From Promethearchaeota archaeon (lineage in GTDB: Archaea; Asgardarchaeota; Lokiarchaeia; Sigyniarchaeales; SOKP01): a stretch of 64,000 nucleotides of DNA. Below are positions 20,085 through 46,064 of this stretch, piece by piece (position 1 is the first letter of the stretch; each line of letters opens with the position of its first letter). The stretch spans positions 1 through 64,000 of the forward strand of contig JAGXNS010000002.1 in NCBI GenBank assembly GCA_019894855.1, in the 5' to 3' direction. A program made the position numbers and the translations under genes. The notes under the pieces were generated by a model. It did not search any database and was not told where the DNA came from. It was given only the letters and a program-made list of their open reading frames with translations.

Positions 20085-22973
20085 TTAATTCGATTTTGAT
20101 GAATTATTCATATATTTCGCTAAATACGTTGATGTGTATGATTCTTTAAAATCTATAATCGATTCAGGTACACCTTCAATGACAATAGACCCTCCACCTT
20201 CTCCTCCTTCTGGTCCAAGGTCAATAATATAATCTGAAGATTTAATTACATCCATATTATGTTCTATTACTATTACTGTATTACCTTTATCAACCAATTT
20301 TTGAAGTACTTTCAACAAAAATTTTATGTCATGGGCATGCAATCCTACAGTTGGTTCATCTAGGATATATAATGTATTCCCTGTGCTTGTTTTCCTTAGT
20401 TCTCTTGCAATTTTCAAACGTTGAGATTCGCCTCCACTTAAGGTAGTTGAAGATTGACCTAATTCTAAATACCCTAATCCTACATCTACTACAGTTTTTA
20501 AAGTTTGTTTTAAATTAGGAATACTATCGAAGAATTCAAGAGCTTGATGAAAAGTCATTTTTAATACATCTGAGATCGTTTTCCCTTTAAATCTTATCTC
20601 TAAGGTCTCAGCGTTATATCTATAACCCCTACATAAATCGCATTTAATATAAACATCTGGAAGAAAGTACATCTCTTTAAGAATATACCCTGTACCTTTA
20701 CATTTTTTACAATGACCTGCCTTGGTATTAAAACTAAATCTACCTTTTTTATAGCCTCTCTCTCTGGATTCTTCAAGCTTAGCAAAAAGGTCTCTAATAT
20801 AATCTAAAGCTTTTGTGTAAGTCGCCGGTACAGAACGAGGTGTTCTTCCGATTGGAGATTGATCTATGTTAATTATTTTGTCAATACTCTCGTATCCTTT
20901 TAGTTTGTCAAAATCTCCGCTTATTATTCTGGAACTGCGAGTGTTTATTAAGTTATGTAATCCCTTGTATAAACAATCAATTATTAAGCTAGTCTTTCCA
21001 GCTCCTGAAACTCCCGTAATACACGTAAAGATTCCTAATGGTATTTTTACTTTTATATTCTTTAGGTTATTTTCTCGAGCGCCTATGATTTCAAGAAAAT
21101 TGTTATTTGGTTCTCGTCTATTCTTAGGAACGTCTATTTTTTTCTCCCCAGATAAATATTTACCAGTTAAAGTTTTGGCTTCTAAAATCGTTTGTAAAGG
21201 GCCTTCTGCTACAATCTCTCCTCCATTTTCTCCTGCTAAAGGGCCCAAATCAATTATATGATCGGCATTGCGCATGATCTCGTCGTCGTGCTCTACAACA
21301 ATAACGGTATTACCCAAATCTCTTAATTTTTTCAACATCTCAATTAATCGTGATATGTCTCTTTTATGTAAACCAACGGAGGGCTCGTCTAACACGTATA
21401 ATACCCCAACAAGCCTAGAACCTAATTGAGTCGCTAATCTTATTCTTTCAGCTTCGCCAACAGATAATGTATGAGATCTTCTACTTAAAGAAATGTAATC
21501 TAAACCAACGTTATCTAAAAAAGATAACCTATCAAGTATCTCTTTTAATACATCTTTAATAATCGTTTTTTGAAGCTCGTCTAATTGTAAATCTTTGAAA
21601 AATTCTAACGAATCTTTTACCGCTAAATCTGATAATTCAGTGATATTAATGTTATTAATTAGAACTGAAAGACTTTCAGGTTTTAACCTTTGCCCTTTGC
21701 ATTGAGGACAGTTTATTTGATTCATAAAAGTTTCGTAAGTATCACGAGCCCATTCGGATCGCGTATCCATGTATCTTCTATGTAACATCGGAATAATTCC
21801 TTCGAAGGGTCTTACTACATGATAAGATGAAGACTTGATATCTTTTTTTTGATTGTTGTAACCGTTATTTTCACTCTCAAAGTGGAATTCGATTGCTTCC
21901 TCTTCTGTTCCAAATAAAACTTTTTGCAATTTCTTAGGATCAATATCCTTTATCGCAGTTTTATGAGTATCAAATTTGTAGTGTTTAGCTACTTGGTTTA
22001 ATGATTGCCAAAAGTACCCCGTTAACGACCCAAATCCAGGGATATTTCTGATAGGAGTGTCTTGGAGTGGAAGGCTAGAATCGTTTCCTAAAACTAAGGA
22101 GTAGTCAAATTCCATCACTGTTCCTAACCCACTACAATATTTGCAACTTCCATGAGGAATATTAAAAGAAAACATTTTATGGTCAATAGGCGGAAACGAA
22201 ATACCACAATCTACACACGCTAAATGTTCAGAATAAATTTGTTCTCCAATGTTAAGAACTTCTACAACCACGATTCCATCAGTTAATCCAAGGGCAGTTT
22301 CTATTGAATCGGCTAATCTAGTTTTGATATCATCCTTCATGACTAGCCTATCCACAATTACATTGATGTGATGCTTTACATTTTTTTCCATTGGAATTTC
22401 TTCATCTAAAGTATACTGAATACCATCTACTTCAACTCTGACATAGCCTTGTTTTTTAAGATCGCTTAACAAGTCTTTGTATTCGCCTTTTCTATCGCGA
22501 ATAATCGGCGCTTTAATGATAAACTTTTGGTTTGTTTCAAGTTCTTGCAGAATTTGTTGGATTATTTGCTGAGGTGTTTGGGGCGTAATTTCTTTACCGC
22601 ATATGGGGCAATGAGGAACTCCAACATTAGCGAAAAGTAACCTATAATAATCGTATATTTCTGTGACCGTTCCTACAGTACTTCTTGGGTTCTTTGACAA
22701 CGGTTTCTGCTCTATAGCTATAGCAGGAGAGAGGCCTTCGATTGAATCTACGTCGGGTTTATCCATTTCTCCAAGAAATTGTCGGGCATAACTCGATAAT
22801 GACTCAAGAAACCGTCTTTGCCCTTCAGCATACAGTGTGTCCATTGCTAAACTAGATTTACCACTACCACTAATTCCAGTTATGATAACTAGTTTATTCC
22901 TTGGAATTATAACATCAATATTTTTTAAATTATTTTGTCTTGCTCCTTTAATAATAATAGAATTATGATTCAT
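20085..22973 (-). CDS. uvrA: Excinuclease ABC subunit A
   Basis: IKGARQNNLKNIDV, two ABC ATPase cores, Zn motifs, 962 aa. Confidence 0.97.
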   Translation of the reverse strand: MNHNSIIIKGARQNNLKNIDVIIPRNKLVIITGISGSGKSSLAMDTLYAEGQRRFLESLSSYARQFLGEMDKPDVDSIEGLSPAIAIEQKPLSKNPRSTVGTVTEIYDYYRLLFANVGVPHCPICGKEITPQTPQQIIQQILQELETNQKFIIKAPIIRDRKGEYKDLLSDLKKQGYVRVEVDGIQYTLDEEIPMEKNVKHHINVIVDRLVMKDDIKTRLADSIETALGLTDGIVVVEVLNIGEQIYSEHLACVDCGISFPPIDHKMFSFNIPHGSCKYCSGLGTVMEFDYSLVLGNDSSLPLQDTPIRNIPGFGSLTGYFWQSLNQVAKHYKFDTHKTAIKDIDPKKLQKVLFGTEEEAIEFHFESENNGYNNQKKDIKSSSYHVVRPFEGIIPMLHRRYMDTRSEWARDTYETFMNQINCPQCKGQRLKPESLSVLINNINITELSDLAVKDSLEFFKDLQLDELQKTIIKDVLKEILDRLSFLDNVGLDYISLSRRSHTLSVGEAERIRLATQLGSRLVGVLYVLDEPSVGLHKRDISRLIEMLKKLRDLGNTVIVVEHDDEIMRNADHIIDLGPLAGENGGEIVAEGPLQTILEAKTLTGKYLSGEKKIDVPKNRREPNNNFLEIIGARENNLKNIKVKIPLGIFTCITGVSGAGKTSLIIDCLYKGLHNLINTRSSRIISGDFDKLKGYESIDKIINIDQSPIGRTPRSVPATYTKALDYIRDLFAKLEESRERGYKKGRFSFNTKAGHCKKCKGTGYILKEMYFLPDVYIKCDLCRGYRYNAETLEIRFKGKTISDVLKMTFHQALEFFDSIPNLKQTLKTVVDVGLGYLELGQSSTTLSGGESQRLKIARELRKTSTGNTLYILDEPTVGLHAHDIKFLLKVLQKLVDKGNTVIVIEHNMDVIKSSDYIIDLGPEGGEGGGSIVIEGVPESIIDFKESYTSTYLAKYMNNSSKSN

Positions 22974-23015: not shown

Positions 23016-25025
23016 TCACGATTTTATTTTATAGTCTTTCTTAATTTCTTTAATTTTATCTCTTAAATAGGCAGCATCCTCGAACCGTAGCTCTTTGGCT
23101 GCAAGAAACATTTTGATTTCAAGATACTCAATTACTAAATCTTTATCTCCCTGTTTTTCTAAATCTTCAATCTTATCTTTAACATTTCTTTTTAATTTCT
23201 TTGTTTCTCTTTCCTTGAACTCATGTTCCTCAGAAAGCGAATTTAAGATGTTTTTCTTAATTGTTTGAGGTGTAATTTTAAATTTCTCGTTGTAATCTTC
23301 CTGTTTATTTCTTCTTCTATTTGTTTCTTCAATTGCTTCCTTCATAGCTCGAGTAATTTTATCGGCATATAATATCGCTCTACCTTTTATGTTACGGGAA
23401 GCCCTACCAATGGTTTGTATAAGCGATCGCGTGTCGCGTAAGAATCCTAATTTATCTGCGTCCAGAATTGCTACTAATTGGACTTCGGGTAAATCTAATC
23501 CTTCTCTAAGAAGATTAATTCCCACTAAAACATCGTGAGTACCATCTCTTAAATGTCTTAATATTTCAAATCTCTCGACAGTTCCTACTTCGGAGTGTAA
23601 GTAAGCAACCTTCAACCCTAATTCAGAATAATACTCAGCAATATCTTCCGACATCCGTTTAGTAAGAGTGGTGACTAAAACTCTTCCTTTATTGGTTATA
23701 ACTTTCCTTATCTCATCTAACAAGTCATCAATTTGATTTTTAGCAGGACGAATTTCCACCTGAGGATCAACCAATCCAGTTGGTCTAATTATTTGTTCAG
23801 CAGATACTCCACCGCTCTTTTTAAATTCCCAACCTCCGGGAGTAGCGCTCATAAAAATTATATGATTTATTTTTGCTTCCCATTCTTCAAAAGTCAAAGG
23901 CCTATTATCGTATGCGGAAGGTAACCTCCACCCAAAATCAACGAGGTTCTTTTTTCTTGATCTATCTCCCCCAATCATTCCATGAATTTGAGGAATCGTT
24001 ATGTGACTCTCGTCAGCAACTATTAAAAAATCTTTTGGAAAATAATCAATTAAACACATCGGTGGACTCCCGGGTGGCCTGCCATCAAGGTGTCTCGAAT
24101 AATTTTCCACTCCCTTACACCATCCCATTTCTCTCATCATTTCAAGATCAAATTTTGTTCTTTTTTCAATCCATTGGGCTTCGGCATATTTCTTCTCTTT
24201 CATGAATTTGGCTATCTGCTGCTCTAACTCTTCTTCAATTGAAATTAATGCCTTAGCTTTATTTTCTTCGGGTATAATGAAATGAGTAGCTGGGAATATT
24301 CTACAATTTGATAAATCTTTTAAAACATCATTAGAAACATAATGAATTTCTTGTATAGACTCGATTACATCTCCAAATAATGAAACACGAATTGCGTTGT
24401 TCAAATACGCTGGAAAGATGTCGATAATGTCTCCCTTAACTCTGACTATGCCGGGTTTAAACTCGATATCCTTTCTTTCATAGTTCATCAGGATTAATCC
24501 TTTTATTATTTCCTTCCTTTGAATAGTCTGACCAACATCAAGGTTCAGGGAAATATCGGTCCAAACTTTTGGATCACCAATACCATAAATACATGATACA
24601 GTTGCAACAATGATAACATCGTTCCTTGTTCTAATTGCATGAGTAGCAGCTAATCTTAATCTCTCGATTTCCTCGTTTACGCTGAAATCTTTTTCAATAT
24701 ATAATCCTGTCACAGGCATATAGCTTTCAGGTTGATAATAATCGTAGTAGCTAACAAAATAGTGAACAGCATTCTTAGGAAATAATTCTTTAAGCTCGTT
24801 ATATAATTGGGCTGCCAGCGTTTTATTTGGTGCCATAACTAAAGTAGGTTTCTGAATTTTCTGAATTATATTTGCAACAGTGAATGTTTTCCCCGTACCG
24901 GTAGCGCCTAATAGCGTCTGAAAGCGGTTTCCGTTTTTTATGTTACCGACTAGTTTCTTGATTGCTTCTGGTTGATCTCCGCTAGGTTTGAAACTAGATT
25001 CAATTTTGAAATTGGATATTATAAT
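23016..25025 (-). CDS. uvrB: Excinuclease ABC subunit B; apparent AUU/AUA start
   Basis: Supplied ORF starts too late (24836). Manual in-frame extension gives IISNFKIESSFKPSGDQPEAIKKLVGNIKNGNRFQTLLGATGTGKTFTVANIIQKIQKPTLVMAPNK..., preceded by an in-frame TAA. Confidence 0.93.
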   Translation of the reverse strand: MIISNFKIESSFKPSGDQPEAIKKLVGNIKNGNRFQTLLGATGTGKTFTVANIIQKIQKPTLVMAPNKTLAAQLYNELKELFPKNAVHYFVSYYDYYQPESYMPVTGLYIEKDFSVNEEIERLRLAATHAIRTRNDVIIVATVSCIYGIGDPKVWTDISLNLDVGQTIQRKEIIKGLILMNYERKDIEFKPGIVRVKGDIIDIFPAYLNNAIRVSLFGDVIESIQEIHYVSNDVLKDLSNCRIFPATHFIIPEENKAKALISIEEELEQQIAKFMKEKKYAEAQWIEKRTKFDLEMMREMGWCKGVENYSRHLDGRPPGSPPMCLIDYFPKDFLIVADESHITIPQIHGMIGGDRSRKKNLVDFGWRLPSAYDNRPLTFEEWEAKINHIIFMSATPGGWEFKKSGGVSAEQIIRPTGLVDPQVEIRPAKNQIDDLLDEIRKVITNKGRVLVTTLTKRMSEDIAEYYSELGLKVAYLHSEVGTVERFEILRHLRDGTHDVLVGINLLREGLDLPEVQLVAILDADKLGFLRDTRSLIQTIGRASRNIKGRAILYADKITRAMKEAIEETNRRRNKQEDYNEKFKITPQTIKKNILNSLSEEHEFKERETKKLKRNVKDKIEDLEKQGDKDLVIEYLEIKMFLAAKELRFEDAAYLRDKIKEIKKDYKIKS

Positions 25026-25150
25026 TTAGACACCAAAATTTAAAGATTAATTAAAGATGAAGTTAAACTTAATTTATAGACGATAGGTCTATAGATTTTT
25101 TAATGTAACATAGTTTATTTTTATTACTGTTATAAATAAAAAGTAAGGAT

Positions 25151-45845: not shown

Positions 45846-46055
45846 TTAAGAAAGAACTTCTAAAATTTTAGTTAAAATTCGCGCTTTACCACCTGTAGAT
45901 TGAAGCAGAGTCTTTCCACATACTAAACATTCTACATCCGTAGCGGAACAACCGAAAATTATTTGTTGGTTTCCACAATTTAAGCACTTTACTCTTAAAA
46001 ACCTACTTTGGGGTTGGGGGATTAATTCCTTATTTGCTTTTCTTTTTGGTATAAT
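45846..46055 (-). CDS. rps27e: Ribosomal protein S27e; apparent AUU/AUA start, absent from supplied ORF track
   Basis: Manual translation [69 protein letters not shown]; 9 bp downstream of L44e; SD-like AAAGGTG upstream. Confidence 0.92.
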
Positions 46056-46064
46056 ATAACACCT

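Follow-up and report, generated by a model that had tools for sequence, protein, structure and literature searches.

Evidence for an AUA start codon of uvrB and for near-cognate starts, including that of aIF1, in a family of Promethearchaeota

Where does translation of a uvrB gene begin when no usual start codon precedes its Walker A motif? The question is raised by a locus in the window, the whole stretch of 64,000 nucleotides analysed here, which comes from an archaeon whose genome (G000) is a 2.5 Mb draft, with 84% completeness and 5% contamination. The replication and RNA polymerase genes of the window are archaeal and the genome encodes Ras/Arf-type GTPases; together with the size and structure of its phylum, this suggests an Asgard archaeon, probably one of the Lokiarchaeia. 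On the minus strand, an in-frame TAA (25028-25026), matched in position by an in-frame stop in most close sisters, bars starts further upstream, and the uvrB frame then reads ATT (25025-25023), ATA (25022-25020), ATA (25019-25017) and TCC AAT TTC. No ATG, GTG or TTG occurs in this frame between the TAA and the ATG at 24836-24834, which is the first in-frame canonical start in the ORF listing and the one a standard caller takes. The ORF called mechanically from it has 606 amino acids and begins past the Walker A motif. A preliminary description of this DNA had reported the ORF start, its coordinates and the start-free stretch, all of which were borne out base for base; it had also warned of a catalytically dead automated call, and the standard call indeed starts at what we number Met63, so that Walker A is missing from the called protein. 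Our preferred reading, to which we assign a probability of about 0.88, is that a functional uvrB begins at the first ATA (AUA), a near-cognate codon that would be read by the CAU initiator tRNA, in a lineage that tolerates such starts and whose aIF1 likely limits its own synthesis.

The identity of the gene could be established from the extended frame. Read upstream of the ATG, it gives FKIESSFKPSGDQPEAIKKL...LLGATGTGKTFTVANII, which had been proposed to be the UvrB N-terminus. In agreement with this, the extension adds about 100 bits against both UvrB equivalog models: the TIGR00631 score was 993.9 bits with it and 889.6 without (cut-off 750.1), and the full-length extended protein reached 1001.8 bits against NF003673 (cut-off 743). 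Matches to the N-terminal ResIII/DEAD domains were present solely in the extended protein. Counted from AUA, the Walker A sequence GATGTGKT, identified by translation and by alignment to the UvrB structure 2fdc, occupies residues 39-46 (24885-24908), upstream of the first ATG; it is missing from the ATG-called ORF and intact in all sister uvrB sequences. The uvrA partner (20085-22973, minus strand, ATG start, TIGR00630 1318 bits) lies directly 3' of the gene. The full-length match above the cut-off, the intact Walker A and the adjacent uvrA together assign the product to UvrB. Re-called from AUA on the basis of the sister start alignment, the equivalog models and the register of solved structures, the coding sequence spans 23016-25022 on the minus strand (668 codons plus the stop). 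A related-locus search of other genome contigs returned distant bacterial UvrBs only.

We then compared 25 genomes of the genus, all of them drafts and mostly metagenome-assembled; uvrB was found in most. The frame, its extension and the missing canonical start recurred in two other independently assembled species, G017 and G019. At the position of the first ATA (25020-25022), ATA was present in G000, G017 and G019; G014 has GTG, and the remaining sisters with a recovered 5' end have ATG. The three ATA species share 93-100% protein identity and form one clade with 100% bootstrap in the DNA tree, with G023 (ATG) as sister group and G014 (GTG) branching next. Since the ATA species are grouped in this way among sisters with ATG or GTG, the simplest history would be a single change from ATG to ATA, kept over a dS of about 0.26-0.40.

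The earlier proposal of an AUU or AUA start of a functional UvrB thus held for a near-cognate start and could be narrowed by the sister alignment to AUA, the AUU being dismissed. Initiation at the preceding AUU (25025-25023), which is nearer to the GGUG motif and has in its favour that the lineage's other genes with a non-canonical start usually have AUU, appears very unlikely: the aligned sister codon is unconstrained (ATT, TAT, TTT, CTT, CTC, AGT, CCT or CAA), and it is with the next codon that the sister ATG and GTG align. We judged this ATT to be non-coding 5' leader because of that lack of constraint. The register with solved bacterial UvrB also fits AUA, since, counted from it, residue 4 pairs with residue 4 of UvrB in 2fdc, 1t5l and 2d7d and the Walker A lysine is residue 45. 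The start-codon comparison and the UvrB alignment that had been suggested as checks thus both point to AUA 25022-25020, evidently the start of uvrB as far as comparison of sequences goes.

The selective regime of the extension bears on whether it is translated. Among the three ATA species, dN/dS was 0.103-0.124 in codons 2-62, compared with 0.08-0.09 in the rest of uvrB. Strong purifying selection on the 61 codons that precede the first ATG argues that the extension is translated, drift being expected had the start moved to Met63. That the gene has decayed, or starts at Met63 and yields a protein without Walker A, is suggested by Met63 being the first canonical start; we consider it extremely unlikely, because codons 2-62 evolve at a dN/dS of about 0.1, much like the rest of the gene, because GATGTGKT is intact in all sisters and because close relatives have ATG or GTG at the AUA position. 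A base-call or assembly error that removed a real ATG or GTG might be suspected in a draft metagenome assembly of this completeness and contamination, but the same ATA occurs in three separately assembled species with a synonymous divergence of 0.26-0.40, and further genes are start-less across about 20 genomes each, so that such an error is scarcely credible. Both findings that might have undone the preliminary description, an error and a non-functional gene, are contradicted by these data.

In G019 (locus L005), codons 2-62 show a raised dS and resemble those of the G022 group (SIAQVIQ), which suggests a local recombination in the N-terminal segment that would have left the ATA start in place. 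A second, partial uvrB (L002) lies on a G000 contig of 1082 bp (C74); it shows 49% identity, a TTG start and a strong GGGGAGGTGAG, and the contig is probably a contaminant.

Upstream of the gene, GGTG (25034-25031, minus strand) forms a partial Shine-Dalgarno (SD) motif separated by 5 nt from the ATT and by 8 nt from the first ATA, in line with the preliminary description. It is weakly conserved, the sisters having GGTG, GGTA, GGCG or none. The GTG within it (25033-25031) opens a short mini-ORF, GTG TCT AAA TTA TAA, that overlaps the uvrB start region, and ribosomes initiating there might shift into the uvrB frame. This frameshift has next to no plausibility, however, as the site is without a standard slippery heptamer and the GTG is missing in many sisters that have the same gene and the palindrome described at the end of this text.

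The uvrB gene is not alone in this respect. Scanning 595 kb of G000 for long 5' extensions free of canonical starts returned uvrB and a dozen others, three of which were followed across the genus. A TatD-family nuclease was compared in 21 genomes, where 18 have ATT as its start, two TTG and one ATA, with GGTGA or GGTGG just upstream in nearly all ATT-started copies. A DhnA-type aldolase (ADH synthase subfamily) had ATT in 18 of 20 genomes, one of the other two having ATA and the other TTG. In a RadA-like gene, ATT and ACG were each found in five genomes (ACG in six copies), ATA in two and TTG in one; a single genome and one paralogue had ATG. In uvrB, these three genes and aIF1, no ATG, GTG or TTG occurs between the upstream in-frame stop and the conserved coding part. 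That ATT, ATA, ACG, TTG and ATG replace one another at a single aligned position behind an SD-like motif is, from the alignments, the behaviour of a start codon, because an ordinary isoleucine codon would not turn into ACG, TTG or ATG.

Further cases emerged when G000 was set against the syntenic parts of G019 (227 gene pairs, shadow ORFs among them): a Ras-like GTPase, whose extension had 8 synonymous and 2 nonsynonymous differences (Sd 8, Nd 2), a cytidylyltransferase (ATC), the ribosomal protein eS27 and a winged-helix protein. The eS27 frame (45846-46064, minus strand; PF01667 and NF001629 matches) is without a canonical start before its conserved domain; its start, located after AAGGTG, is probably AUU (46055-46053) or AUA (46052-46050), and these codons are identical in G019. 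At G000:C82 (merged stretch offset 63366, plus strand), ACG in G000 is replaced by ATG in G019 after GGAGGT, possibly a further case of start-codon turnover. Several candidates were set aside: a phosphofructokinase (C55) that misses the first 100 profile positions and is probably frameshifted was left uncounted, L184:2101 looks like a tRNA gene mistaken for a protein-coding one, and several antisense shadow ORFs among the G000/G019 pairs were discarded.

Start-less coding extensions were found for 17 of 399, 9 of 264 and 5 of 144 genes in three members of the family (3.4-4.3%), and for 3 of 107 and 3 of 128 (2.3-2.8%) in two genomes of another family of the same order; a more distant genome had 2 of 140, both N-masked stretches. 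The excess over the other family is modest and suggestive, and the specificity to the lineage rests on the named genes followed in multiple genomes. About 9-13 of the 399 G000 frames, with extensions of at least 25 codons, were convincing by eye. Because only about 39% of 25-codon stretches are without an in-frame ATG, GTG or TTG, the true share of genes with near-cognate starts may, as a rough figure, reach 5-8%. In a genome-wide test for ATH codons at SD spacing, few genes had strong SD motifs.

Among these genes, aIF1 deserves particular attention. The protein belongs to the SUI1 family (PF01253; NF002096 above cut-off) and was present in 23 of the 25 genus genomes, so that its loss can be discarded as the cause of near-cognate starts. 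None of the genus genomes had a canonical aIF1 start. We extended the survey to 232 sampled genomes of the phylum and read the 5' ends of 40. The start was ATT (ATC in G134) in genera g1, g3, g4, g5, g7 and g8 of the family and in most of g9; in the first six, no canonical start occurs between the in-frame stop and the CxxC motif. The stop often lies only one to three codons upstream, as in TAG CCT ATT, TAG AGC ATT or TAA AAA ATT. The offset from GTGA to the ATT or ATC was constant at 12 nt in nearly all distinct sequences with GTGA, longer than the peak of 9-10 nt for canonical genes, although the intervening codons differ and stops are found among them. At a similar position, genus g2 and certain other families of the order or class carry ATA; ATG, GTG or TTG was read in the remaining families and in the other classes that were sampled. 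Three genomes have an additional aIF1 copy that is divergent (57-61% identity): at L286 (G011:C60), where the frame opens with ATT ATA ATT, at L288 (G002:C133) and in G020:C252.

The initiation machinery of the genus looked ordinary. The 16S 3' end GGCTGGATCACCTCC, a canonical anti-SD, was found in 16 of 25 genomes, which excluded an altered anti-SD, and G000 and G017 both contain a CAU tRNA-Met with the initiator-type GGG/CCC anticodon stem (GGGCTCATAACCC). A dedicated initiator tRNA with a UAU, GAU or AAU anticodon would explain why AUH codons dominate the non-canonical starts, and one GGGCTAATAACCC and two GGGCTGATAACCC matches exist in the genus. These matches are confined to two genomes and are as frequent as those of the reversed-pattern control, and ARAGORN calls no tRNA at them; moreover, ACG is also a start in the RadA-like gene and the normal CAU initiator-type tRNA is present, so that a variant initiator seems highly unlikely. 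At L156-L158, L160, L162 and L163, covariance models matched tRNAs, mostly long, that ARAGORN did not call; these likely contain introns.

With a standard 16S tail and CAU tRNA, and with variant anticodons at control level, the ordinary initiator tRNA acting on a near-cognate codon becomes the likely mechanism. We thus favour initiation of uvrB at AUA, with methionine most likely supplied by the CAU initiator through near-cognate pairing at the third position and with help from the weak GGUG motif. The lineage would tolerate AUU, AUA, AUC and sometimes ACG on a small share of genes, with a permissiveness set by aIF1, and aIF1 would probably reject its own AUU start and so limit its own synthesis, as IF3 does in bacteria. 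We infer the methionine, the near-cognate pairing and the aIF1 feedback, the last made plausible by precedents for aIF1, IF3 and eIF1. A broader reading, for which we see somewhat less than an even chance, is that third-position stringency is relaxed in this lineage, that it is set through feedback on the AUU-started aIF1, and that the near-cognate genes (uvrB, the RadA-like gene, TatD, an SMC-like gene, eS27 and the Ras-like GTPase being the proposed members) form an aIF1-dependent translational regulon convergent with IF3/infC.

These precedents are instructive. In Saccharolobus, aIF1 promotes discrimination against start codons other than the canonical ones (PMC6237735). Bacterial IF3 represses its own AUU-started infC, with an autoregulated start that is AUU in E. 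coli and AUC in Streptomyces (PMC5472188 and references there). The aIF1 gene resembles infC in being a fidelity-factor gene with a conserved AUU or AUC start, but the factor is an archaeal SUI1 protein not homologous to IF3, its feedback is deduced by analogy and more genes share the start type; aIF1 would therefore work like infC/IF3 without being IF3. In eukaryotes, the homologous eIF1 represses its own poor-context AUG (as cited in PMC6237735). A weak start site would in both cases allow the factor to curb its own production, although eukaryotes keep AUG and weaken its context, whereas here the codon itself is near-cognate. The GTC start of Streptomyces sigR under IF3 control (PMC5472188) is similar in that a non-canonical start, mis-annotated by gene callers, puts one gene under a fidelity factor; it differs in being bacterial, restricted to a single regulator gene and experimentally proven. 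A 2020 review gives AUG, GUG and UUG as archaeal starts and notes that SDs are not prevalent at the annotated starts of Prometheoarchaeum (PMC7531240), to which mis-set starts could contribute. In the Kariarchaeaceae, one "rare ATT start codon" was inferred in 2026 for the AtubA tubulin (PMC13394414). As here, an Asgard ATT start with a plausible ribosome-binding site was deduced from an N-terminally truncated annotation, but it concerned one gene in another Asgard lineage and not several genes conserved over a family, plus aIF1. An incomplete search of the Asgard, Lokiarchaeota and Prometheoarchaeum literature found no report of lineage-wide near-cognate starts or of this aIF1 start.

The UvrB proteins of 2fdc, 1t5l and 2d7d share full-length homology, all domains, Walker A and the numbering with the protein described here; the bacterial genes use canonical starts, in contrast to AUA. 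If AUU, AUA, AUC and ACG do open a few percent of the genes in this family, many annotated proteins would be without their N-termini, catalytic motifs included, because such codons go unrecognised by standard gene finders, which to our knowledge accept only ATG, GTG and TTG. Domain surveys, structure prediction and phylogenies addressing the origin of eukaryotes would be affected, the family probably being among the closest prokaryotic relatives of eukaryotes. The AUU on aIF1, a relative of eIF1, suggests that self-limitation of a fidelity factor by a weak start would also exist in archaea, in parallel to IF3 and eIF1.

Finally, a palindrome, CTATAGAC-N5-GTCTATA (25075-25094, minus strand), lies upstream of uvrB and overlaps the TATA-like CTATAAATT. 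In 14 of the 25 genus genomes the exact pattern has a single copy, which in every case sits shortly before uvrB; it may serve as an operator for this gene alone. Its arms are fixed and its spacer changes.
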